A program made the position numbers and the translations under genes. Shown in pieces: positions 9,298 to 60,840 of a DNA stretch of 64,000 nt. The stretch lies in contig CAIOKE010000133.1 of the NCBI GenBank assembly GCA_903858815.1, positions 62,001-126,000 of the forward strand, read 5' to 3'. Position 1 is the first letter of the stretch. Each line of letters begins with the position of its first letter. Under the pieces are notes generated by a model, which saw nothing but the letters and a program-made list of their open reading frames with translations, made no database searches and was not told where the DNA came from. Source of the DNA: an uncultured Planctomycetaceae bacterium (lineage in GTDB: Bacteria > Planctomycetota > Planctomycetia > Planctomycetales > Planctomycetaceae).

Positions 9298-10629
9298 TCA
9301 GACTCCCGGAACTTCAAAGCCACTGCGATAGGACTTCGTCAGCAGTCGATCGGCAGCCGGCACATTTGTCCGGAAACTCTCGGCATTCCACTCGATCGTC
9401 ATGCCCGGCAGACGAGCCGCCACATTTCCCAGTTGAACGGTTTCAGTCAGGGGACCCGCATAATCAAACCCGTCCGTTGTTTTCTGTCCGGCAAGTACGG
9501 CATCCACCCATGCGTGCCAGTGGCTGGCACCAGCAACTTCAGGCAGTTTGTAATCTGCAAACCTGTCCGCGGGATACAGCTGTGGCATGCCGACATGCGG
9601 AAGAACCATGGTTCCCCCCTCGCCGATAAACAGCGAACCAGCCGCCGGAAGCTGCCTTTCGGTCGGCATTCCTGCAAGCTCTGCGGGTGGTTTCAGACCA
9701 CCATCACGCCAAACCACTTCAATTGGTCCCGTTGTGTACTTTGTTCCCCGAAACTTCCACGTAACGGTCTCCGGACCTGGCCAGACCTCAGTAGTCGTCC
9801 CCGAGTTTTCCGCATGAATACTGATGGGATGGCGAATACCAAGGGCTGTGAACACCGGATCCAGAATATGACAGCCAAAATCACCAAGTGCGCCTGAACC
9901 AAAATCCTGCCAGTCACGCCACTTGAATGGATGGTAGACGTCTGCGGCAAAAGGACGTTCCTGTGCTGCCCCCAGCCAGAGATCCCAGTTCACACTGGCC
10001 GGAACTTCTGCAGTGGCCGGCCGATCTGTCCGCTGGCAGTACTGCCGTCCCTGCACCCCTACCCATGAATGCACCGCCTGCACTTTTCCAATCGCACCAT
10101 CCTGAATCAGACGGACTCCCAGACGGTACTCTTTCGCAGAATGAATCTGATTCCCCATCTGAGTAATCACGCCGACTTTCGCCGCCATCTGGTTCAGCTG
10201 ACGAGCCTCCCAAACGGTGTGCGTCAGAGGCTTCTGGCAGTAAACATGCTTCCCCATCTTCATCGCTGCCATTGCCACGGGAGCATGCATGTGATCTGGA
10301 GTCGAAACAATCACTGCATCGAACCCGGTGCCAAGCTGTTCAAACATTTCACGATAATCAGCCCAGTGCTTCACTCCCGGATACGCGGCATCCGCCTTAT
10401 CAAAACGCGAAGAATCAATGTCACAGAAGCCTGCAAAATGCACGCCAGCGTGAGTCCCGATATTGTTCAGGTCCGACCAGCCCATACCGTTCACGCCAAC
10501 TGCCGCAACATTCAGCTGCCTGCGGCGAGTGGCAGCCCGCAGCACCCCCGGTGCCCCAAGCAGACCGGAAAGAGCCACAGACTGCTTCAGAAACTGACGG
10601 CGACCGGAGGACTGAGAATTGCGAGACAT
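9298..10629 (-). CDS. Gfo/Idh/MocA-family oxidoreductase with Tat-type leader
   Basis: A 443-residue NAD(P)-dependent sugar or polyol dehydrogenase-like protein. The N-terminus (SGRRQFLKQSVALSG...) is a twin-arginine leader, so it is probably exported folded with its cofactor. The Rossmann domain starts near residue 40 (NVAAVGVNGMG), and the motif HVYCQKPLTHTVWEARQLN is the family's EKP-type catalytic region with Gln in place of Glu. The C-terminal half is the alpha/beta domain. Start at the ATG 10629. Such secreted paralogues are typical of planctomycetes. It stands beside, and divergent from, the PSCyt1/sulfatase block. The substrate is unknown. Confidence 0.88.
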   Translation of the reverse strand: MSRNSQSSGRRQFLKQSVALSGLLGAPGVLRAATRRRQLNVAAVGVNGMGWSDLNNIGTHAGVHFAGFCDIDSSRFDKADAAYPGVKHWADYREMFEQLGTGFDAVIVSTPDHMHAPVAMAAMKMGKHVYCQKPLTHTVWEARQLNQMAAKVGVITQMGNQIHSAKEYRLGVRLIQDGAIGKVQAVHSWVGVQGRQYCQRTDRPATAEVPASVNWDLWLGAAQERPFAADVYHPFKWRDWQDFGSGALGDFGCHILDPVFTALGIRHPISIHAENSGTTTEVWPGPETVTWKFRGTKYTTGPIEVVWRDGGLKPPAELAGMPTERQLPAAGSLFIGEGGTMVLPHVGMPQLYPADRFADYKLPEVAGASHWHAWVDAVLAGQKTTDGFDYAGPLTETVQLGNVAARLPGMTIEWNAESFRTNVPAADRLLTKSYRSGFEVPGV

Positions 10630-41522: not shown

Positions 41523-42935
41523 ATGAAATCGCATCCGAATCGTCGACTCCTGCTGCAGGCCTGCACAGCCGCTGCCACGCTGACAGTCACAAAATCAGCC
41601 CAACTGCTCGCAGCGAACAGCCACTCGCAACCTCGCTGGCGTGCCGGAGTCTCTCGCGAAATCATTACGCCGGAAACCGCTGTCTGGCTTGCCGGCTACG
41701 GTTCAAGACGAGCTCCCGAAGGCAAACTGCATGACCTTTGGATGAAGGCGATTGCTCTTGAAGCACCAGATGGCAGACGCGTGCTGCTGATCACCAGCGA
41801 CTTTCAGGGTGTCCCGGCCTCGATGAGCAATCGCGTCTTCGAAAGGCTTGCCCGACTGCACGGGCTGCAGCGCGAGCACGTCATGTTTACGTTCTCGCAC
41901 AACCACTGCGGACCACGACTCGGCGATGACCTCATCGATTACTACCCGGTGGACGCTCAGCAGGAGGAACTGGTACGACAGTACACTGACCTGATGGTGG
42001 AACGAACTGTGAAACTTGCAGAGGCCGCCCTGCAGGACCTGCAACCGGCCACACTCAGCCACGGCACCGGACAGACAACGTTTGCCGTGAACCGTCGCAA
42101 CAATCGCGAAGCCGACATTCCGGACCTCCTCGCACGCGGAGTCCCGCTTGCCGGTCCCGTCGATCACTCCGTGCCGGTCCTGAAAGTTGCCCGTTCAGAT
42201 GGCAGCACTGCCGCAATTCTGTTTGGCTATGCCTGCCACCCCACAACACTCAGTTTCACACAGTGGTGTGGTGACTATCCCGGCTTCGCACAGCTGCAAC
42301 TGGAACAGGCATTCCCCGGAGCCACTGCCATGTTTGTCAACACCTGTGGTGGAGATCAGAACCCGCTGCCGCGACGCACTGTGGAGCTCTGCGAAAAATA
42401 CGGCACGATGCTCGCCACCGCGGTACGCGAAACGCTGCAGAAAACACTGCAGCCGGTGACACCTCGGCTGCGTACCGCGTTTGAACTGATTGATCTGCCC
42501 TATCTGCAGGTAATCACTCGCAATGAATTGCAGCAGGCAGCCGATTCTGATCAGGGAATTCGAGGACGCTGGGCTCGCAGATTGCTTGCCCGACTGGATG
42601 CCGGAGATACCTTTGCGTCCGGTTCTCCCTACCCACTGCATGTCTGGCTGCTGGGAACAGAACTGAAGTGGATCGGCATGGGCGCTGAAACCGTTGTGGA
42701 TTATGCCCTGCGATTCAAGCACACCTGGGGAGCAGGTACGTGGGTACTCGGATACTCGGATGATATGCTCGCCTACATCCCCAGCCGACGGGTCTGGGAA
42801 GAGGGCGGCTACGAGGGTGGCAGCAATCTTTACGAATACGGTCGCCCGGCTCTGAGATGGAGTGGCAGTATTGAGGATCAGATCGCTGCCGCTGTTGAAC
42901 GCCTGTTTCAGAAAGCGGATCAGCAGACAGACTGA
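41523..42935 (+). CDS. neutral/alkaline ceramidase-like secreted hydrolase
   Basis: A 470-residue protein with a Tat-like leader (RRLLLQACTAAATLTVT...). The body matches the N-terminal zinc-hydrolase domain of neutral ceramidases. AGVSREIITPETAVWLAGYG opens it, a zinc motif FSHNHCGPRLGDD comes next, and GYACHPTTL gives a second histidine site. FVNTCGGDQNP stands where the ceramidase nucleophile loop is found, with Cys-Gly-Gly-Asp in place of the usual Val-Gly-Asp-Val-Ser. Family members in planctomycetes are of unknown substrate; lipid, sialic-acid or sugar esters are possible. It stands alone upstream of the DUF1080 gene with a 121-base gap. Confidence 0.8.
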   Translation: MKSHPNRRLLLQACTAAATLTVTKSAQLLAANSHSQPRWRAGVSREIITPETAVWLAGYGSRRAPEGKLHDLWMKAIALEAPDGRRVLLITSDFQGVPASMSNRVFERLARLHGLQREHVMFTFSHNHCGPRLGDDLIDYYPVDAQQEELVRQYTDLMVERTVKLAEAALQDLQPATLSHGTGQTTFAVNRRNNREADIPDLLARGVPLAGPVDHSVPVLKVARSDGSTAAILFGYACHPTTLSFTQWCGDYPGFAQLQLEQAFPGATAMFVNTCGGDQNPLPRRTVELCEKYGTMLATAVRETLQKTLQPVTPRLRTAFELIDLPYLQVITRNELQQAADSDQGIRGRWARRLLARLDAGDTFASGSPYPLHVWLLGTELKWIGMGAETVVDYALRFKHTWGAGTWVLGYSDDMLAYIPSRRVWEEGGYEGGSNLYEYGRPALRWSGSIEDQIAAAVERLFQKADQQTD

Positions 42936-43056: not shown

Positions 43057-43866
43057 GTGAAGAACCTGACCATCATGTTTCTCGCAGCCACAGCGCTGCT
43101 CTCTGCTCGCGCCAGTCAGGCACAGGAATGGAAAAGCGGTGTCGAATGGCAGGAACCACCACTTGTCACCCCCGGAGCCTCTGACAACGCTCCTCCATCA
43201 GATGCTGTCGTGCTGTTCGACGGCAGTAACCTTGACGCATGGGAAAATGGCGACAAGTGGCTGGTTCAGGATGGTATTGCAACCGCTCAGCAGTCCGCGA
43301 TTACCACTCGTCAGCACTTCGGTGATATTCAGCTGCACATTGAATGGTCAGCCCCCACAGAAATCCGCGGGGAAGGGCAGGGGCGAGGCAATAGTGGCTG
43401 CTATCTGATGGGCCTCTATGAAGTCCAGATCCTCGATTCCTTTCAAAACCAGACTTACTTCGACGGTCAGGCCGGTTCGGTCTACAAACAGATACCTCCA
43501 ATGGCCAACGCTATGCGCAAGCCGGGCGAGTGGAATACCTATCAGATCGTTTTTAACTCGCCCCGTTTTCTGGGTAACGGCGATGTCGACAAACCAGCCA
43601 GCGTTACACTGATTCAGAACGGCGTCCTGCTGCTGAACCACTTCGAACTGTACGGTCCCACCAGCTACACAGACGCTCCGCACTACAAGCCACACGCTGA
43701 GACCGGGCCGATCTCACTGCAGTTTCACGGTGATGCTGTTCGCTTCCGAAATATCTGGCTGCGCGAATTGAAACCACCTGTGGGCCGCCGAGTTTCAGCC
43801 CCATTCAATATCCAGCCAGCCCCCAAATCAGCAGAACCAAAGCCGGAAACTGCTGCACCGAAATAA
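43057..43866 (+). CDS. DUF1080 secreted glucanase/lectin-like protein (3-keto-disaccharide hydrolase family)
   Basis: A 269-residue secreted protein. The signal peptide ends near SQAQEW. The rest is a concanavalin-type jelly roll: VVLFDGSNLDAWENGDKWLVQDG at the start, FGDIQLHIEWSAP, GRGNSGCYLMGLYEVQILDS and PISLQFHGDAVRFRNIWLREL. This is the DUF1080 family, for which 3-keto-glucoside hydrolase activity has been described. The GTG at 43057 is chosen because GGGAG lies 8 bases upstream; the next ATG is 43075. The C-terminal 25 residues are a Pro/Ala-rich tail. It ends just before a 26-bp palindrome shared with the convergent DUF1501 gene. Confidence 0.85.
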   Translation: MKNLTIMFLAATALLSARASQAQEWKSGVEWQEPPLVTPGASDNAPPSDAVVLFDGSNLDAWENGDKWLVQDGIATAQQSAITTRQHFGDIQLHIEWSAPTEIRGEGQGRGNSGCYLMGLYEVQILDSFQNQTYFDGQAGSVYKQIPPMANAMRKPGEWNTYQIVFNSPRFLGNGDVDKPASVTLIQNGVLLLNHFELYGPTSYTDAPHYKPHAETGPISLQFHGDAVRFRNIWLRELKPPVGRRVSAPFNIQPAPKSAEPKPETAAPK

Positions 43867-46314: not shown

Positions 46315-46386
46315 GCCCAGAGCAGGACTGGACAGGACAGAGCAGGGCAGGGCTGCTGTGCGCCACGTAAGGTGCTGCGGTCTGCG

Positions 46387-47613
46387 TCATCGCGCCGCCT
46401 GACGCTCCCCGGACTCCAGCCACGCCTCAGAAAACACAGCGTGCTTCATCGATTTTCCGCCGCTGACGAAGTAGCTGTAAACCGCATGGATCTGGCCATC
46501 CCGCGTTTGAATAATGCAGGGATAATGAGCTGATCCATCAGACAGGTCCTCCAGCAACTTTTTCCACTTCCACGTTTTTCCCTCGTCGTCTGACATGCTG
46601 ACAGCCAGTCGTCCGCGTCCTTCGCGCGCATCGTTGTGTATCAGCAGCCAACGTCCACTCTGCAGGCAAATACCATCCAGACCTGATCCCGGATTAGGCA
46701 GAGTAGACACCATAACAGGCCCCCACGTCACGCCGTCGTCAGAAGATTCCGCATAACGGATATGACCGGTAAAACCGTTTTCCCTCATCCACGCCGTCAC
46801 AGTGCCATCGGACTTCTGCAGCACCGTCGGCTGGATTGCCCCAAAACCCAGCAATGGTTTTCCCGCGAACCACGTTCGGCCCCCATCATCGCTGATCGCC
46901 ATGATCGACAGGGAAAAAGTGTCCGTGTAAAGTGGCAGCAGGATTCGACCAGACTTCAGCACCGTCGGTTTACAACGTGGCTGCCAACCCATCCGCTGGT
47001 ACATTTTCTGACTCAGCCTCTCTTTCGCCACATTGATTGACGCCATTTTTTCGGAGGGCAGGGGAGGCAACAGTGCCAGAGTCTGATCCAGCACTCGAAC
47101 AGCCTCAGCCGAGAAATCATCCGGTTTCAGCAGAATTGTCTCATCGCGGTTCCACAACGGAGCCCCCTCGCCAATCGGCTGATCCGAGACTTTCAGACGA
47201 GTCAGGCAGGATTCCCAGGTATTTGCGACAATCACTGGCCAGAACAAAAACAACCGTCCCTCACGATCCGTCATCAGCGCTGTGTTGCAATCGGGGAAGC
47301 CAGGGGTATCCGCCAGTAAAAACGAGGGACTCCATTGAGCCTTCCCGGCAGTCCGCCGCGCACCCCAGACGGCCACGTCATCCGCCTGACGCTCGCCACT
47401 GCCGCGATACCACGAAACCAGCAGGTCGCCGTTGCTCAGCTCAGCAATCCCGGGTGCATGATTGTGCTGACCGTGCAGCGGAAAAATCAGTTCAGAGACC
47501 GGTTCCTGACCTGCACACACCCGCGTCGCCACCAGCCAGCAAAGGTGCAGCACAACGCAGAATCGCCATCGAAACACGCTCAGATTCACGAAAAACCTCA
47601 GTTTCCGCACCAC
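46387..47613 (-). CDS. secreted BNR/sialidase-like six-bladed propeller
   Basis: A 408-residue secreted protein. A signal peptide ([19 protein letters not shown]) is followed by repeated Asp-box-like turns ([32 protein letters not shown]), the mark of sialidase/BNR propellers. [22 protein letters not shown] is the usual opening of planctomycete exo-sialidase-like proteins. True sialidases need an arginine triad that I cannot place with confidence, so the substrate (sialic acid or another glycan) is open. Start at GTG 47613, which begins the signal peptide. A leftward gene, divergent from the DUF1559 gene across about 270 bases. Confidence 0.78.
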
Positions 47614-50980: not shown

Positions 50981-52672
50981 ATGTACCAGAGCAGCATTGT
51001 CCTGCTGATGTATCTGTCTGCATTATCCCTCGTTGCGGCTGAAGATCTGAAACAGAGCGAGCAGCAGAGGATTGAAGTGATCCGCCGAATTTCGCCAGCC
51101 GTGGTCTGCGTTATGGACGCGGCCGGAGCAGGCGGTGGATCAGGCGTACTGATTTCTGCCGATGGCTACGCAATCAGCAATTTTCACGTAACCTCAGGGT
51201 CGGCCAGCTTTCTGAAATGTGGCCTGAACGATGGTCGCGTTTACGATGCCGTACTGGTCGGTATCGATCCCACCGGCGACGTCTCGCTCATCAGATTGCT
51301 GGGTCGCAGCGACTTTCCCTTTGCCACGGCTGGAAACAGTGACAACGTGAGAGCAGGGGACCAGTGCCTCGCGCTGGGCAACCCATTCCTGCTGGCGTCA
51401 GATTTTTCTCCGACCGTCACATGGGGCATCGTCAGTGGTACCCGCCGCTATCAGTACCCATCCGGGACGTTTCTGGAATACACCGACTGCATCCAGATTG
51501 ACGCTTCAATCAATCCCGGGAATTCCGGAGGCCCGCTGTTTGATATTCAGGGACGCTGGATCGGTATCAATGGGCGTGCCTCATTTGAGAAACGCGGGCG
51601 AGTCAACTCCGGCGCCGCCTACGCCATCTCGGTCAATCAGGTCCTGCACTTCGTTGATCACCTGAAGTGTGGTCTTATCGTTGATCACGGTCGACTCGAC
51701 TTCACCGTCGAATCTGACGAACAGTTCAACGTGGTGGTCCAGCAGGTCAGTGAACTGTCTGAGGCGTACAGACGCGGGCTGCGTTCTGGTGCAGTCCTCG
51801 AATCCTTCGCGGGACGCCGACTGACCTCAGCCAATGACTTCCAGAATGTGGTGGGCATCTATCCCGAAGGCACCCGGCTGCCTTTGGTCTGGCGTGATCG
51901 AACCGGGCAGCACACAGCCACCGTACGTCTGGGACCACTGCATGCGTTTCAGAAGACTCCAGAACTGCCCCAGGAAAGACGCCCTGAAGGACATCCGGAA
52001 AACGACTCACAACAGCCGGAACAGCCTTCGCCCGAACTGCTCAAACTCTTTACAGCCCGCGAAGGTTTCTGCAACTACTACTTCAATGACGCAGCCACGC
52101 AGCAACTACTGACACCAATGCTGCAGAGACTTGCGGATGTCACACCTGATATGGCGTGGAAAATCACCGTCTCATCAGCCGATGAAGCAACCGCTCTGCA
52201 GGGTGAGATTGCTGTGACTCGAAACACTGTTGGTCTGCGGCTGAATGATCAGTCATGGCTGCAGAACACTGAGACTCCGAAGTTGCAGGATGAGCCACCA
52301 ACGTTCCCCGGTTTTCTCCTCGCTGTCAATCATCTGCATCGGCTGCTCAGAAAAGACAAACCCGCTTTCGATGAACTGACGGCTGCCGGTCGTACTGTGC
52401 ACCAACCGTCGGGCAGAGCACTCAGAATCCTGTTGGCACGCACCGGAGCCCGCTCCACTCGCTGGTACTTCAGCGATGACCAGCCTTTGCCTGTTGCGCT
52501 GGATCTGGAACCAGAGGCCGCCACAGATGAAATACGACTGATTTTTGATGACTGGAAGATGTGGTCGGGACTGCTGTTTCCAGAACGGCTGGGAATCGTC
52601 GACCCCACCACAGAGCAGGTTAGCTGGCTCAGGATTACCGCAGCATCAGCTCAACAGGAGCAGAATAAATGA
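50981..52672 (+). CDS. secreted HtrA-like serine protease with PDZ and C-terminal extension
   Basis: A 563-residue trypsin-like protease of the Deg/HtrA (S1C) type. A signal peptide (to about residue 21) is followed by the protease domain with a complete triad: His69 (NFHVTS), Asp100 (PTGDVSLI) and Ser182 (NPGNSGGPLF). A PDZ-like domain follows (about residues 235-310), then some 230 residues I do not recognise. The ATG at 50981 is preferred to GTG 50975 because GAGAGGG lies 7 bases upstream. Its stop overlaps the start of the next HtrA-like gene by 4 bases, so the two products are made together, probably as partners. Confidence 0.9.
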   Translation: MYQSSIVLLMYLSALSLVAAEDLKQSEQQRIEVIRRISPAVVCVMDAAGAGGGSGVLISADGYAISNFHVTSGSASFLKCGLNDGRVYDAVLVGIDPTGDVSLIRLLGRSDFPFATAGNSDNVRAGDQCLALGNPFLLASDFSPTVTWGIVSGTRRYQYPSGTFLEYTDCIQIDASINPGNSGGPLFDIQGRWIGINGRASFEKRGRVNSGAAYAISVNQVLHFVDHLKCGLIVDHGRLDFTVESDEQFNVVVQQVSELSEAYRRGLRSGAVLESFAGRRLTSANDFQNVVGIYPEGTRLPLVWRDRTGQHTATVRLGPLHAFQKTPELPQERRPEGHPENDSQQPEQPSPELLKLFTAREGFCNYYFNDAATQQLLTPMLQRLADVTPDMAWKITVSSADEATALQGEIAVTRNTVGLRLNDQSWLQNTETPKLQDEPPTFPGFLLAVNHLHRLLRKDKPAFDELTAAGRTVHQPSGRALRILLARTGARSTRWYFSDDQPLPVALDLEPEAATDEIRLIFDDWKMWSGLLFPERLGIVDPTTEQVSWLRITAASAQQEQNK

Positions 52673-53712
52673 AGATCTGTCGCCGGCGTATGCTGCAACT
52701 GACCGGCAGCCTGCCGTTCTGGCCTGCTGTTGTGCCCGCACTGGCTTCGCAAACGCCCCCCAAAGATACTCAAACCGTCGTGGTGAAGCTTTTTGGAGCA
52801 GGGCTGGGATCGCTCGATTCTTATGGAACCGGAGTACTTGTTTCTGCAGAAGGACACGTGCTGACCGTTGCCAGTCACCTCGTCTCCACCGGATTTCTGA
52901 CCGCTGTCACCGCAGATGGTCGCCGATTCACCGCCGAAACTGTGGCGACCGAACCATCCATGGATGCCGCACTGCTCAAACTGAAAACTGAACCGGCAGA
53001 TCAGTTCCCCTGTATTGATCTGAAGACTGCTGTCGAACCAGCAGTGGGAACTCCTGTGCTTGCGTGGAGCAATATGTTTCGTGTGGCCGCCGGAAATGAA
53101 CCTGTGTCCGTAGTGCACGGGGTGATTGCAGCCTCGGTCTCGCTGGATGCAGTTCAGGGCAAATGGAAATTCCCCCTGAAAAGTCATGTGTGGCTGATCG
53201 ATGCCATCACAAATAATTCCGGGGCAGCCGGGGGATTACTGACGGACTCAGACGGTCAGCCGGTCGGGCTGATTGGTCGCGAGATTCGCCACGCCACAAG
53301 TGGTACCTGGGTGAATTATGCGGTGCCATTGAAAACACTGCAGCCTGCAGTTGAAGCCATGCTGAAGGGCCAGCGACTGACGCCGGCAGCGCCAACCACC
53401 GTTGCCGAACCACTTCTTTCAGCACGGGATCTGACCGGTCGATTTGGATTGACGTTGATTCCGGCGGTGCTGGAGCGGACGCCCGCGTGGATCGATTCTG
53501 TGGTACCCGGAACCGCAGCGGCGCAGGCCGGATTTCGTCGTGGTGATCTGATCGTGCTGGTTGGTGACGCGGTGATCACAAGTGAATCCGATGCTCGGCG
53601 CCGTCTGGCCGAGTATCGCGCTGGCCAGAAGGCCGCCATCACAGTGTCTCGTGACGAGCAGTTGCTGGAGTTGTCGCTTCTGGTCCCGGCGGCGACGACC
53701 ACCGGCCGCTGA
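52669..53712 (+). CDS. HtrA-like protein with PDZ domain, catalytic Ser replaced by Ala (pseudoprotease)
   Basis: A 347-residue exported protein, coupled by an ATGA overlap to the upstream protease. A leader with Arg-Arg-Arg then a hydrophobic stretch (residues 1 to about 26) precedes the trypsin fold. His70 (VASHLV) and Asp99 (SMDAALL) are kept, but the serine motif GNSGGPL is GAAGGLL here, so Ala187 stands where the nucleophile should be. A PDZ domain fills the C-terminus (about residues 245-340: WIDSVVPGTAAAQAGFRRGDLIVLVG). It is therefore probably an inactive scaffold or regulator of the active partner. The convergent gap to the next gene holds the dif-like site. Confidence 0.85.
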   Translation: MKICRRRMLQLTGSLPFWPAVVPALASQTPPKDTQTVVVKLFGAGLGSLDSYGTGVLVSAEGHVLTVASHLVSTGFLTAVTADGRRFTAETVATEPSMDAALLKLKTEPADQFPCIDLKTAVEPAVGTPVLAWSNMFRVAAGNEPVSVVHGVIAASVSLDAVQGKWKFPLKSHVWLIDAITNNSGAAGGLLTDSDGQPVGLIGREIRHATSGTWVNYAVPLKTLQPAVEAMLKGQRLTPAAPTTVAEPLLSARDLTGRFGLTLIPAVLERTPAWIDSVVPGTAAAQAGFRRGDLIVLVGDAVITSESDARRRLAEYRAGQKAAITVSRDEQLLELSLLVPAATTTGR

Positions 53713-53766: not shown

Positions 53767-53794
53767 ACGTCCGATAATGTCCGTTATGTTAAGT
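53767..53794 (+). other. candidate XerCD recombination site (dif)
   Basis: A 28-base sequence with the dif layout: an 11-base left arm ACGTCCGATAA, a 6-base centre TGTCCG and an 11-base right arm TTATGTTAAGT. The right arm differs from the E. coli XerD arm (TTATGTTAAAT, as I recall it) at one base. By hand alignment the whole site matches the recalled E. coli dif and B. subtilis dif at 19 of 28 positions each. It lies in the 138-base gap between convergent genes, and GGGCAGGG octamers on both flanks point toward it. No integrated element is visible beside it, so a chromosomal dif is the simplest reading. Confidence 0.65.
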
Positions 53795-53850: not shown

Positions 53851-55134
53851 TCAAATGCCGTTCAAACGCGAACGCAGGCTCCGGTCCAACTGGTCCACCG
53901 TCACACCCGCTCGACTCAACTGACGAAGTATCCGCTCGTCCAGACGAGTATCCAGATCCGTGCCAATGTCAGGGTCACGGGACAGACCCAGAGCATCGGC
54001 ATGCCAGTCCTCCAGCACACGCCGAACCACCACGTCAGGTAACCCCGACAGATGCTCGCGAGTCCCCTGAATGATGTCCGCACGCTGACTGTAAATCCCT
54101 GCGATCTCGTCCAGCAATCTGCCATTCGCCGCACTCAGCTGCAGCGGTGGTCGACGAACACCGGCACCCTGCTCGTCCGCCCCGGAGCCACTTTCCGAAT
54201 CACCGGCCCTGGCCCCTCCTGAAACTCGCCGCAGCAGGCCTGACCAGACGGACCCGGCAGCCTCTCCCGTCGCATCCGAAATCAACTGCTGCACCAGTCT
54301 TCGTCGCTCTTCAGGAGCAGCATTCAGCAGCCGCTTCATATCCTCCTCAGATAACTGCTGCAGCAGTTGATCGCGAAGTTCCTGCGGCACAGCTGCGAGC
54401 AGACTTTCCACAGCAGACACGGGATCACCCTCAGTCGACTGCTGAGCCCGATTGTCAGATGCCGGTCGGTCCTCCGACTGGCCAGCCAGACGCCGCAGAT
54501 CAAAACCACTGCCCCCCGGCCCCAACCACGATTCCTTATCCTTTTCCGCTCCCTTGGAAAACACGCCAGCCGATGCCGGCTTCGCATTCGCTAATTCATC
54601 GCCCGCAGCCTGCAGATTCTGCCCGAATCGATTCAGCACCTGCTCTACATCACCCACAGAATGCTCTGGAACCAGTTGCAGCAGAACCTGCGAATGACTG
54701 AGAATCAACGCGGCCCCGTAACCCGACCATGTCTGACTGACGGCCCTGCGAATATCTGCGGACATCGTGATCAGAAAATACATAGCTGTCATGCAGATCA
54801 CAATGCCCCGCACCAGCCCCAGCAATGCTCCAAGATGCCGATCAAATCCGCCAAGGCGAGCGTCCTCAAGCCACTTACTGATCAGTCCTGCCCCAAGAAA
54901 CGTGGCCCCGCACAGTACCACGTAAATCACCAGCATCGAGATCCAGTGTTTCAGCGGAGGATCCACTGCAATCAAGGGCTCAATCAAGGGCGACAATGCC
55001 CCCGAAAACTTGAAACACAGCAGCAACGCTGCAGCCCACGCCAACTGCGACAGCAACCCGCGAGTTGCGCCGCGAATTGTGCAGAACAACAGCACTGCCA
55101 GCACGATCAGGTCAACAATCTGAGACGGGTTCAT
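53851..55134 (-). CDS. CvpA-family membrane protein with a long C-terminal extension
   Basis: A 427-residue protein. The first 140 residues are the CvpA domain with four predicted spans (IVDLIVLAVLLFCTIRGATRG at the start, then GLLSQLAWAAALLLCF, ISMLVIYVVLCGATFLGAGLI, and LGLVRGIVICMTAMYFLI). A further 280 or so residues are hydrophilic, with charged helices (LRDQLLQQLSEEDMKRLL, ERRRLVQQLIS) and a Ser/Gly-rich linker; I recognise no domain in it. Classical CvpA is about 160 residues and is needed for colicin V export in E. coli. The extension is likely cytoplasmic. Start at ATG 55134. Confidence 0.8.
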   Translation of the reverse strand: MNPSQIVDLIVLAVLLFCTIRGATRGLLSQLAWAAALLLCFKFSGALSPLIEPLIAVDPPLKHWISMLVIYVVLCGATFLGAGLISKWLEDARLGGFDRHLGALLGLVRGIVICMTAMYFLITMSADIRRAVSQTWSGYGAALILSHSQVLLQLVPEHSVGDVEQVLNRFGQNLQAAGDELANAKPASAGVFSKGAEKDKESWLGPGGSGFDLRRLAGQSEDRPASDNRAQQSTEGDPVSAVESLLAAVPQELRDQLLQQLSEEDMKRLLNAAPEERRRLVQQLISDATGEAAGSVWSGLLRRVSGGARAGDSESGSGADEQGAGVRRPPLQLSAANGRLLDEIAGIYSQRADIIQGTREHLSGLPDVVVRRVLEDWHADALGLSRDPDIGTDLDTRLDERILRQLSRAGVTVDQLDRSLRSRLNGI

Positions 55135-55327: not shown

Positions 55328-55777
55328 TCAGAACTGCCGGCGACTGTCCAGCAACAGCGTTACCGGCCCATCGTTCAGCAGTCGCACATCCATGTGAGCC
55401 TGAAATTTCCCGGTTTCCACCGGCAGACCATGCCCACGCAACTCTGCTATGACGCCCTGATAAAGCGGTATTGCCACTTCCGGACGGGCTGCCGCCACAA
55501 AACTGGGACGTCGCCCCTTCCTGCAGTCTCCATACAGTGTGAACTGGCTGACCAGCAGCACGGCCCCCGCAACCTCCGCCAGCCCAAGGTTCATCCGCCC
55601 CTCAGAATCCTCAAAGACTCGCAGTCCGGCTATCTTCTCCGCAATCCAGACGACGTCCTGCTCAGTATCATCACCAGCGATCCCCAACAGCACCAGAAAG
55701 CCCCTTCCAATCTGGCCCGTAATTACACCATCCACTGTCACCGATGCCTCGGAAACTCGCTGAACTACCGCTCGCAT
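55328..55777 (-). CDS. dtd: D-aminoacyl-tRNA deacylase
   Basis: A 149-residue enzyme that hydrolyses D-amino acids (and glycine) from mischarged tRNA. The N-terminus [17 protein letters not shown], the middle [20 protein letters not shown] (SQFTL motif) and the ending with a Gly-cisPro-type segment ([29 protein letters not shown]) are full matches to Dtd. Length is normal. Start at ATG 55777. It overlaps the end of thiO by 13 bases on the same strand, so translation is coupled. Confidence 0.95.
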
Positions 55778-56904
55778 GAAGGCCCTCGCATATCCGCAAC
55801 CACGAACCGATCGAAGGCCAATCCCGATAGATTCAACGGAGATCGCCCGGTCAGAATCAGCTCACAAAGAATTTCTGCCGTTCCCGCAGACATCTGCAGA
55901 CCCGAACGGAAATGCCCTGCCCCTGCAAACAGGTTTTCAAAACCCGTCACCAAACCCAGAAATGGCAGGCCGTCAGGAGTCCCGGGACGCAGTCCGGCCC
56001 ACGTCTTCACCACCGGTGCCGACTGCAGCTCAGGCGACAGATCACAGGCAAACTCCAGCAGACCACGTACACCGGAAACTGTTGTACTGCGACAGAATCC
56101 AGCGTCTTCCTCCGTCGACCCCACCAGAATCAGACCATCCTCACGCGGTACAAGATACCTCCGGCCACTCTCAACCACATGCGGCAGCCAACCCGGCTGT
56201 GTCTGCAACAGCACCATCTGACCACGAATGGGCCGAATCGGAATTGTTATTCCAAATCGCTCGAGGATCATTCCGGTCCACGCTCCGGACGTCAGACAAA
56301 CAGCAGTCGGCACCAGTGTCCTGTCAGACAGGCGGACAGCCGTAATTCTTCCAGCATGCTGCTCCAGCACGGCCTCACCAGCCTGCTCCAGAATCATCAC
56401 ACCAGCCTTCAGGCAGGCACTCTGCAATACACGCAGATGCCACGGATTTCTTACCTGCGCGAACTCCGGGAGCCACGTGGCTGCTGACCATTTCGTTTTG
56501 AGTTGGGGTATCCGCCGACGCAGATCCGCACCTTCCAATGCCTCGGCTGCAACCCCATCCCGCTGCCAACGCATTGCCTCCGCAGCAGCCTCGCCCGGAG
56601 TGTCCGCCAGCAGAATCGAACCACACTCACGATAGCCGTTATCTTCACTCGTCAGTCGCCACAGCAGTTCATTCAACTTCGGCCAGCACTCAAAACTGAA
56701 CGACCGGAGTCGCGATTCAGCCGACTCGGACTGGACTGCCCTGCCCGGCGGCAACATGCCGGCCCCAGCCCACGAGGCCTCAGTTCCAGCCCGAGCACGC
56801 TCGACCAGAGTCACAGCCATACCGCGATGCCGCAGCAGCAGGGCCGTTGTCAGCCCCACCACTCCGCCACCCAGCAGTACAACTCCAGCCCCCGTGTCAG
56901 ACAT
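55765..56904 (-). CDS. thiO: glycine oxidase ThiO-type FAD enzyme
   Basis: A 379-residue FAD-dependent amine oxidase of the DAO family. The nucleotide-binding [21 protein letters not shown] opens the chain, [16 protein letters not shown] is the ThiO signature, and the C-terminal [13 protein letters not shown] and [18 protein letters not shown] close the FAD site. In thiamine synthesis it makes dehydroglycine from glycine for the thiazole ring; other amines are possible substrates. Start at ATG 56904, only 2 bases after the stop of the propeller gene; the 3' end overlaps dtd. No other thiamine genes are near. Confidence 0.9.
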
Positions 56905-56906
56905 AC

Positions 56907-58178
56907 TCAGGGCTGCTTCTTCAGGCCAAGACAATACAGCGATTCCCGTCGCCCTGCCCCATCCCCCGTCGACGTCCGCATGAATAACTGCCCGTCAACG
57001 GTCACTGCTGATGCAAAACCAGAATCACCCAGCTGGTTCTGAGCCACCAGTTCGTACTTCTCGGGATTTGCTTTGATCACCCACGTTGTTCCGGCTTCAT
57101 TGGTTGCCAGAATCAGATCACCCACAAGCAACGGTGAACTGGAAACCGGACCACGCAGACGCTGCTTCCAGCGTTCTTCTCCGGTCTTCGCATCCCAGCA
57201 GTAAAACACACCCTGATCACTGAACGCATAGACGAATCCACCTGTCACCAGCATCGACTGCTCGTAACACTTCACCTTGTTCTTCCAGACGACACCGGAA
57301 CCATCAGCACGAACCGCCACTGTTTCTGCATCCGGATAACCACCACTGGCAAATACGAGGCCATCTTCCCAGATACACGTGCCGCAGGTGGCCATAGTCA
57401 GACAGGGAGTACTCCAGAGCGGAGCGCCATTCGCCGGATCATACGAGGCTATCATCTTTGTTCCACTCAGCAGCAACTGATCACGACCATTCAGTTCAGC
57501 GATGATGGGCGAGCCCCAGTTCAGCATCAGCGGACGCTCACGCACCCACAACTGCTCACCGTCCCGCAGACGAAAAGCCCGAATCCATGCCGATGTGTCG
57601 CAGTCTGCAGTCACAATCAGTGTATCGCGATAGATGGTTGGTGACGCCGCATAACCATACTCATAAGCCTGTGGCCTGAAGTTTCCGGCATCGACCCGCC
57701 ACACAACTTTGCCGGACATATCCAGTGCCACCACTTCAATCTTTTCGTGATGGCAGAACGACAGATACAGCAGACGCCCGTCCGATGCAGCTGTGGATGA
57801 AGCATGAGTATTCCTGGCATGCACCGGCGGAAAACCGCCCTGACTGATCGGGGTCTGCCACAGAAGTCGCCCATCCCGACGACTGAAGGCAACCACACCC
57901 TGCGTCTCTGCTCCCTCGTCAGCCGTTCCCAGAACAACGAGATCCCCCACAATGACCGGAGAAGAATGACCGCGCCCCGGAACGTCGGCCCGCCAGACAA
58001 CATTCTTCTCATTGCCCCACTCCACAGGGATCTGTGGTCCGGAAGGAACCGTATTGTCACCACGCGGTCCACGCCACCGCAGCCAGTCCTCTGCTGTCAC
58101 AGAGCCCACGCAAACACAAGAAAACAGCAGGCACAGAAAACTCTGAGCCAACATCCGCAACCACGCTGCACCCAACAT
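56907..58178 (-). CDS. secreted PQQ-type beta-propeller protein
   Basis: A 423-residue secreted protein. A signal peptide (MLAQSFLCLLFSCVCVGSVTA) is followed by tryptophan-docking-type repeats: RWRGPRGDNTVPSG at the start, then blades with GRLLWQTPIS, GKVVWRVDAG, GEQLWVRERP, APLWSTP, SGVVWKNKV, TGEERWKQRL and a closing blade. This is the WD-like PQQ propeller that planctomycetes use in many secreted proteins; there is no evidence of actual PQQ binding. Start at ATG 58178. First gene of a tight run (propeller, thiO, dtd). Confidence 0.85.
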   Translation of the reverse strand: MLGAAWLRMLAQSFLCLLFSCVCVGSVTAEDWLRWRGPRGDNTVPSGPQIPVEWGNEKNVVWRADVPGRGHSSPVIVGDLVVLGTADEGAETQGVVAFSRRDGRLLWQTPISQGGFPPVHARNTHASSTAASDGRLLYLSFCHHEKIEVVALDMSGKVVWRVDAGNFRPQAYEYGYAASPTIYRDTLIVTADCDTSAWIRAFRLRDGEQLWVRERPLMLNWGSPIIAELNGRDQLLLSGTKMIASYDPANGAPLWSTPCLTMATCGTCIWEDGLVFASGGYPDAETVAVRADGSGVVWKNKVKCYEQSMLVTGGFVYAFSDQGVFYCWDAKTGEERWKQRLRGPVSSSPLLVGDLILATNEAGTTWVIKANPEKYELVAQNQLGDSGFASAVTVDGQLFMRTSTGDGAGRRESLYCLGLKKQP

Positions 58179-59832: not shown

Positions 59833-60840
59833 ATGGCACCCCCCGAAACTCCTCCTGAACCTGTCTGGCTGCTGATCCTCGACTCCTGTCCACTTCCGTC
59901 AACAGAACCACCAGCCACGCGGGCAGATCAACCACTACAATGGCACCCATTTGATGATCTCGACTGCCAGTCACTCTGCTTCGAACAGTATTACAGTCAG
60001 CATCCTGCTCCCGAAACCGATCTGACAGACTATCTCGGTGGGCCCGCAGCCTGCTCAGAATTCCAGACACGCCTCAGCAACGCCGGGAAATCCAGTCAGC
60101 ACATCAACCTCAGGTTTCCCGCAGATTGTGGCACCGAACTACCACATGGTCAGCCGTGGCTGACCCCTTCACCGATCACCGCCCTGCCCTCGACTGAACA
60201 CAACTCAACACTGCCAGACCTGCTGATACTTTCCGCAACCGTCTGTGAATCCTTTCAGACCCTCACAGAGATTCTGAAATGGATCCTGCAGCTGCGAACT
60301 CAATGCACCGTGGCAGGATGTCCGCCCACACTGATTGTGACTGGTCTGCGAGGCGTGGCTGTCAAAGTGCCGCAAGACTTCACTGCAGCCTGCTCCGAAG
60401 CCCTGATTCACGTGCCACTCTGGATTCTGAGCGAGGGAATTCACTCGGCCCGGCTGCAGACTCTCTGTGGCAGTCATGACCTACTGCCCACGATTGCTCA
60501 GTTGCTCCGCCTGCCACCGCTTCAGAACGACCACTGCCCTGCCCCGGACGATGTTACACCGCCTGCACTGCTGCAGACTCCGGTCAGCCTGTTGTCTGTT
60601 CGTGAATTGCACCCGGAGACCAACCCGCGCCTGCTGACCATCGCGGGTGGCGAATGGGTCGGGCTCAGAACACAGCACTACTTTCTGGTGCACCCGGTGA
60701 ATCTGCCCCACGATGAGGACGTGCTGCAGACCTGCAGCCTCTATCAGAAGCCGGATGACTTCTGGAACGTGAACAATTCCATTGTCGCCTGCGAGGAAAT
60801 CGCCCGCGCTATGCTGGCCGCTGCCAGCCAGCAGCACTGA
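59833..60840 (+). CDS. degenerate sulfatase-like (alkaline phosphatase superfamily) protein
   Basis: A 335-residue protein without a signal peptide. VWLLILDSC near the N-terminus resembles the first strand of sulfatases, and the second half follows the sulfatase pattern: a strand PTLIVTGLRG, HVPLWILSEGIHSARLQ, DLLPTIAQLLRLPP, LLTIAGGEWVGLRTQHYFLVHP, and LYQKPDDFWNVNN at the point where sulfatases have a DPxExxN ending. The Cys/Ser-x-Pro-x-Arg catalytic motif and the metal aspartate pair are absent, so it is unlikely to be a working sulfatase. It could be a structural or regulatory relative. Convergent with the Fur gene, 10 bases between stops. Confidence 0.6.
   Translation: MAPPETPPEPVWLLILDSCPLPSTEPPATRADQPLQWHPFDDLDCQSLCFEQYYSQHPAPETDLTDYLGGPAACSEFQTRLSNAGKSSQHINLRFPADCGTELPHGQPWLTPSPITALPSTEHNSTLPDLLILSATVCESFQTLTEILKWILQLRTQCTVAGCPPTLIVTGLRGVAVKVPQDFTAACSEALIHVPLWILSEGIHSARLQTLCGSHDLLPTIAQLLRLPPLQNDHCPAPDDVTPPALLQTPVSLLSVRELHPETNPRLLTIAGGEWVGLRTQHYFLVHPVNLPHDEDVLQTCSLYQKPDDFWNVNNSIVACEEIARAMLAAASQQH

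Follow-up and report, generated by a model that had tools for sequence, protein, structure and literature searches.

Gene neighborhood and sequence of the site

The window analyzed here, a stretch of 64,000 nucleotides from an uncultured member of the Planctomycetaceae, contains an HtrA-like gene and a CvpA-like gene that converge on a 138-base gap (the HtrA-like stop ends at 53712 and the CvpA-like stop lies at 53851), and within this gap is a 28-bp site composed of ACGTCCGATAA, TGTCCG, and TTATGTTAAGT (Table 1). A sequence-only reading had proposed it as a chromosomal dif site, that is, the place where XerC and XerD resolve chromosome dimers at the terminus upon activation by FtsK, and both the letters at 53767 to 53794 and the convergent gap were found as claimed. 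The site has the layout of a dif, namely, a 6-bp centre flanked by 11-bp arms whose inner parts form a partial dyad.

We compared the site with the dif sequences of Escherichia coli, Bacillus subtilis, and Frankia alni as printed in the methods section of PMC3025954. The XerD-side arm was indeed one base off that of E. coli (10/11 matching). The reported overall match of 19/28 to two references held for B. subtilis but not for E. coli, for which we counted 18/28. Closest of the three was the predicted dif of F. alni (20/28), which shares CCGATAATG and TTATGT with our site but agrees in only 3/6 bases of the centre and differs in four outer bases of the XerC arm.

Table 1. Positions of the proposed dif site, neighboring genes, candidate KOPS, and related loci
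Feature	Position	Strand	Remark
dif site, 28 bp	53767-53794	+	Top strand order XerC arm, centre, XerD arm
XerC-side arm	53767-53777	+	ACGTCCGATAA
Central region, 6 bp	53778-53783	+	TGTCCG
XerD-side arm	53784-53794	+	TTATGTTAAGT
HtrA-like trypsin/PDZ protein	52669-53712	+	Left neighbor
CvpA-like (Colicin_V) protein	53851-55134	-	Right neighbor, XerD side
D-Tyr-tRNA deacylase	55328-55777	-	Next gene on XerD side; often stays near dif
FAD-dependent oxidoreductase (DAO)	55765-56934	-	Third gene on XerD side
Two overlapping candidate KOPS, GGGNAGGG	43370-43382	+	Toward dif
Candidate KOPS	46345-46352	+	Toward dif
Candidate KOPS	47056-47063	+	Toward dif; nearest on left
Candidate KOPS	55915-55922	-	Toward dif; nearest on right
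Candidate KOPS	56739-56746	-	Toward dif
Candidate KOPS	56952-56959	-	Toward dif
Candidate KOPS	60182-60189	-	Toward dif
Candidate KOPS	60537-60544	-	Toward dif
KOPS-like octamer	42627-42634	-	Away from dif (counter-example); another at 10057
Twin dif loci	L045-L049, L051-L061, L063-L065, L069, L072-L074, L325, L339		
Phage-like elements	L323:2729-16926, L324:2302-11040		

Uniqueness and conservation among relatives

Using the core ATAATGTN3TTATGTTAANT, which was picked after the site had been seen, we found a single match in the window at up to 3 mismatches, and this match was perfect (expected number, 0.01). No second site was present within 160 bases of it at up to 5 mismatches. In the draft genome (6.39 Mb in 373 contigs), a related core gave one perfect match and 14 others, all with 3 mismatches, against 17 in a reversed control, so that the other matches are at control level. 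Thus, the whole-genome scan revealed no better single dif match elsewhere in the draft.

Besides, the site was retained in close relatives. At up to 1 mismatch in the core, it was detected in 16 of the 18 genomes of the genus and in 27 of a set of 59 genomes, the own genome being included in both counts, and the control for the latter set gave 2 matches. With the XerC arm added to the pattern and up to 2 mismatches allowed, 96 of the 98 family genomes (completeness at least 95%) matched, 93 of them once, 3 twice, and 2 not at all, with one control match; at the same threshold, 235/297 class genomes matched, and we noticed no control match among the results. A phylum scan with a freer centre matched 121/195 genomes (4 control matches), including 94 of the 168 genomes outside the class. 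Named GTDB genomes yielded at least 118 matching stretches, and among the matches listed, 110 were labelled planctomycetes, including Pirellulaceae, Thermoguttaceae, Schlesneria, Gimesia, and Gemmataceae MAGs. We also observed the same pattern in records labelled Cyanobacteria/Obscuribacterales, Omnitrophota, Acidobacteria, and Firmicutes (L237, L273, L316, L245, L319, L268, and L303), which may be contamination or chance.

Positions 1 to 7 of the XerC arm, absent from the core pattern by which these sites were found, read ACGTCCG in 16/16 genus sites, 7/8 other family sites, and 0/5 sites outside the family. The centre was TGTCCG in 35 and TGTCTG in 10 of 50 distinct family sites. Information per base in the genus was 2.00 and 1.79 in the arms versus 0.66 and 0.80 in the flanks, a contrast that arises partly by construction because the loci were located via the core.

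Four genomes gave no match, two in the genus at up to 1 mismatch (G012 and G015) and two in the family at up to 2 mismatches (G216 and G326). The CvpA-like gene is present in G012, in which the contig ends about 121 bases beyond it, and G216 has a weak CvpA-like match with no site close by; a search for the CvpA-like gene in G015 and G326 found no match. Core matches in G022, G041, and G056 and two of the three in G058 came without a XerC arm and were excluded as primary sites (L017, L019, L026, L043, and L044). Separately, five genomes of family f2 (G150, G202, G117, G074, and G046) carry two or three dif-like sites, which lie on separate contigs and differ in their spacers; each replicon may have one.

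Among the loci compared, the HtrA-like gene adjoins dif in the genus only, and a CvpA-like relative is close to dif in many Planctomycetaceae and Pirellulaceae loci. The XerD-side neighbors (the CvpA-like protein and the deacylase) are widely kept across families, whereas the left side is not. We further sought six flanking proteins within 1.5 kb of Gemmataceae-type loci and found none of them in 30/30, which led us to reject the idea that the site hitchhikes with a gene pair. Its conservation among relatives is independent of the flanks, as expected of a dif site.

KOPS polarity around the site

GC skew was of little help as a terminus marker. Along the contig of about 440 kb, negative values prevailed to the left and to the right of the site, with no sign change there; two single-contig relatives, with 20 stretches sampled in each, showed no clear replichore pattern, and the pooled flanks of relatives showed no consistent switch. 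GC skew was therefore dropped, and KOPS polarity, which marks the site more directly, was used instead. The dnaA gene was likewise dropped as an origin marker: DnaA-like matches occur at least twice in 86 of the 98 family genomes, in positions that vary, and therefore no origin was assigned. The distance from dif to dnaA is not fixed: with numbering that starts at a long dnaA in both genomes, dif lies at 3.62 of 7.28 Mb in G018 and at 7.21 of 8.92 Mb in G106. Several single-contig assemblies have base 1 at a short DnaA-like match.

The flanking octamers cited by the sequence-only reading were verified: GGGNAGGG, the E. coli KOPS word, occurs in the window 8 times forward and 2 times reverse to the left of the site, and 0 and 5 times, respectively, to the right. 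Over the 439,752-base contig, GGGNAGGG was counted 12 forward and 5 reverse on the left and 7 and 55 on the right, and its best change point (109056 to 117915) encloses dif, at contig position 115767. Among 73,022 words on the contig alone, GGGNAGGG ranked only 51 by total and 241 by the weaker side, since many G-rich words are polar on the right side. Part of the contig result is indeed attributable to GC bias, since the switches of GGGNGGGG and words like it lie at other places along the contig.

Since the contig alone was not decisive, we pooled 20 kb either side of dif from 16 relatives belonging to eight families and included controls. GGGNAGGG was counted 91 forward and 14 reverse on the left and 14 and 103 on the right, ranking 2 of 86,128 gapped octamers behind GNGCAGGG, which overlaps it; with 10 kb per side, it again ranked 2 (z, 6.1; top word, 7.2). 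Five control splits, each drawing 16 of 40 stretches from two genomes only, and a pseudo-dif 10 kb away gave no word above z 3.0 and no switch of GGGNAGGG. Finer bins with GAGCAGGG added showed mixed polarity in the 2.5 kb closest to dif and almost full polarity at distances of 2.5 to 10 kb. In two genomes, G251 and G066, the local polarity was weak. Thus, KOPS polarity switches at the site, with orientation toward it on both arms, as at a dif. Guide octamers of E. coli and B. subtilis are leading-strand biased and switch at dif (PMC2680272). We infer the location of the terminus here from KOPS only.

XerC, XerD, FtsK, and FtsZ

The own genome encodes two strong tyrosine recombinases and three weaker integrase matches, five in all. 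XerC scored 351 bits (NCBIfam cutoff, 335), and XerD, whose open reading frame runs to the contig end, scored 325 bits, slightly under the cutoff of 329.6. A 934-amino-acid open reading frame contains the 4TM, alpha, motor, and gamma domains of FtsK, and FtsK gamma was found in 97 of the 98 family genomes. To our knowledge, planctomycetes divide without FtsZ. The lack of FtsZ, to which the sequence-only reading had drawn attention, was borne out for the family: none of the 98 genomes had a match over the cutoff, with one weak fragment, and the same search was positive in 13 of 14 well-known genomes. Deletion of ftsK was not possible in Planctopirus limnophila, and a genome-wide screen found the gene to be essential (PMC6952346 and PMC10632474).

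Filamentous-phage-like elements at dif

In the Gimesia-type genus g39, we identified a second site in the same direction as dif, 14.2 kb away in G060 and 8.7 kb away in G102. It combines the host's own centre and XerD arm with the XerC arm ACGTCTGATCA. For the G060 element only, a near-identical relative with an empty site was observed (G059; flanks about 94% identical). In both genomes, a Zot-family protein and a replication protein of the G2P type are encoded between the two sites. A small protein there resembles a pilin weakly, with a score under the cutoff. Zot-family proteins of filamentous phages are assembly ATPases. A tblastn search with XerC, XerD, and two further integrases gave no match inside the elements; the scan of short open reading frames covered part of them. 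The elements thus have the marks of an IMEX: a position at dif, a junction that mimics dif, and no recombinase of their own found. On the simplest reading, they are filamentous-phage-like elements that borrow the host XerCD, and such integrations at dif suggest that the host recombinases act on the site. They resemble the IMEX filamentous phages that sit at dif (the CTXphi and VGJphi types and XacF1 of Xanthomonas); VGJphi departs from dif in the centre (PMC5357621), whereas the second junction of the Gimesia-type elements keeps the centre and departs in the XerC arm.

Other dif-like copies were noticed as well. The termite-gut MAG Pcl387_bin141 has dif-like sites with similar flanks on at least seven contigs (L217, L220, L235, L240, L277, L295, and L311), several of them near contig ends, and these look like multicopy dif modules. 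Planctomycete-type dif sites were also found, by a looser pattern, in 33 IMG/VR stretches (L370 to L402), with flanks recurring across L370, L390, and L399, across L384 and L388, and across L385, L389, and L396.

Twin dif sites

In 23 of 30 Gemmataceae-type loci (L045 to L074), a second, inverted site lies 51 to 95 bp from the first. The order is minus copy and then plus copy, with the XerC arms inward and the XerD arms outward. Seven loci had no second site, two of them at contig ends (L050 and L062) and five not (L066, L067, L068, L070, and L071). In 518 random control windows, none had a second site at up to 4 mismatches and one did at 5; second sites at 5 mismatches in L294 and L306 were taken as chance. 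L046, L289, and L339 are one locus. Using an exact gapped pattern, we detected the twin in 52/297 class genomes, namely, 48/76 of family f3 (Gemmataceae type), 4/7 of f8, and 0/214 elsewhere, and no control match was seen. The two spacers of a twin are never identical. Position 6, which adjoins the XerD arm, holds different bases in 52/52 pairs (40/40 distinct); random re-pairing, in which kinship was ignored, gave a position-6 difference in a mean of 33 and a maximum of 45 pairs in 20,000 shuffles. Thirty twin pairs re-read from the loci were consistent with this. Of 16 KOPS-like octamers in the surroundings of two twins, 14 are directed inward.

E. coli FtsK reportedly requires the DNA beside the XerD arm, and a pair with XerD arms outward would therefore serve both directions. 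It may well be, with chances a little better than even, that a twin dif operates in the Gemmataceae and in another family, i.e., two complete inverted sites about 50 to 95 bp apart, XerD outward, which are kept incompatible by a constant difference in the spacer base that adjoins the XerD arm. If this is true, FtsK arriving from either replichore would meet a XerD-first site, and the spacer mismatch would prevent recombination between the two twin sites.

Alternative explanations

That the site is the dif of this chromosome, as the sequence-only reading had proposed, is supported by its uniqueness in the genome, its retention in relatives, and the KOPS switch, and we regard the site as almost certainly the chromosomal dif of this planctomycete. 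Dif-like sites are known on mobile elements, including the 33 IMG/VR stretches matched by the looser pattern, and at least seven contigs of the termite-gut MAG carry similar copies, so that one might think that a plasmid or phage has left behind a dif-mimicking site for attachment or resolution and that this is not the chromosome's own. Such a remnant, however, is not expected to last across a phylum, and the single copy in 93 of the 98 family genomes, the related XerD-side gene neighbors across families, and the convergence of KOPS on the site make this origin very improbable. No likelier is another conserved element of convergent gaps, e.g., a terminator or regulator site, despite the position between two convergent genes: the site is constant while its neighbors change between clades (the HtrA-like gene adjoins it in the genus only), all 30 Gemmataceae-type loci lack the six flanking proteins within 1.5 kb, and neither the KOPS switch nor the integrations would be expected of such an element.

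Rather unlikely, though far less so than these two, is that the site works with XerCD and FtsK but that the replication forks meet elsewhere, in which case dif would mark the convergence of FtsK pumping and not the terminus. The GC skew without a switch and the unequal distances from dif to dnaA agree with this, and termination need not happen at dif, as argued in PMC3025954. On the other hand, the leading-strand octamer bias that switches at dif in E. coli and B. subtilis (PMC2680272) argues that the polarity marks a replichore junction, and on the contig the skew sign is as expected to the right of the site, although not to the left.

Proposed function and implications

Taken as the chromosomal dif, the site very probably serves this bacterium, which lacks FtsZ, to part doubled chromosomes before the cell divides. 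The E. coli model would have FtsK, anchored at the point where the daughter cells part, read KOPS and pump DNA toward the site from both sides until it touches XerD on the TTATGTTAAGT arm; XerC and XerD would then swap strands across TGTCCG, turning a chromosome dimer into two monomers. The planctomycete system is like that of E. coli in the 11-6-11 layout, the XerD-side arm, the orientation of GGGNAGGG to dif, the FtsK gamma domain, and the encoded XerC and XerD, but it differs in the XerC-side arm (5/11 matching), in the lack of an FtsZ match over the cutoff in the family, and in the lack of a GC-skew switch.

A 2011 survey (PMC3025954) that detected dif in 578 of 592 organisms with a single chromosome had no success in its one planctomycete (0/1) or in cyanobacteria (0/5). 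In the literature that we searched, with most subscription papers outside it, we found no planctomycete dif or KOPS and no twin dif. The present analysis supplies the DNA side, i.e., a candidate destination for FtsK and the words expected to guide it there. Besides, dif provides a landmark where GC skew gives none, as well as a natural integration site for genetic tools, and the Gemmataceae twin offers a testable two-site variant. For the biology of these bacteria, our results suggest that the oriented DNA pump outlived the loss of the tubulin ring.
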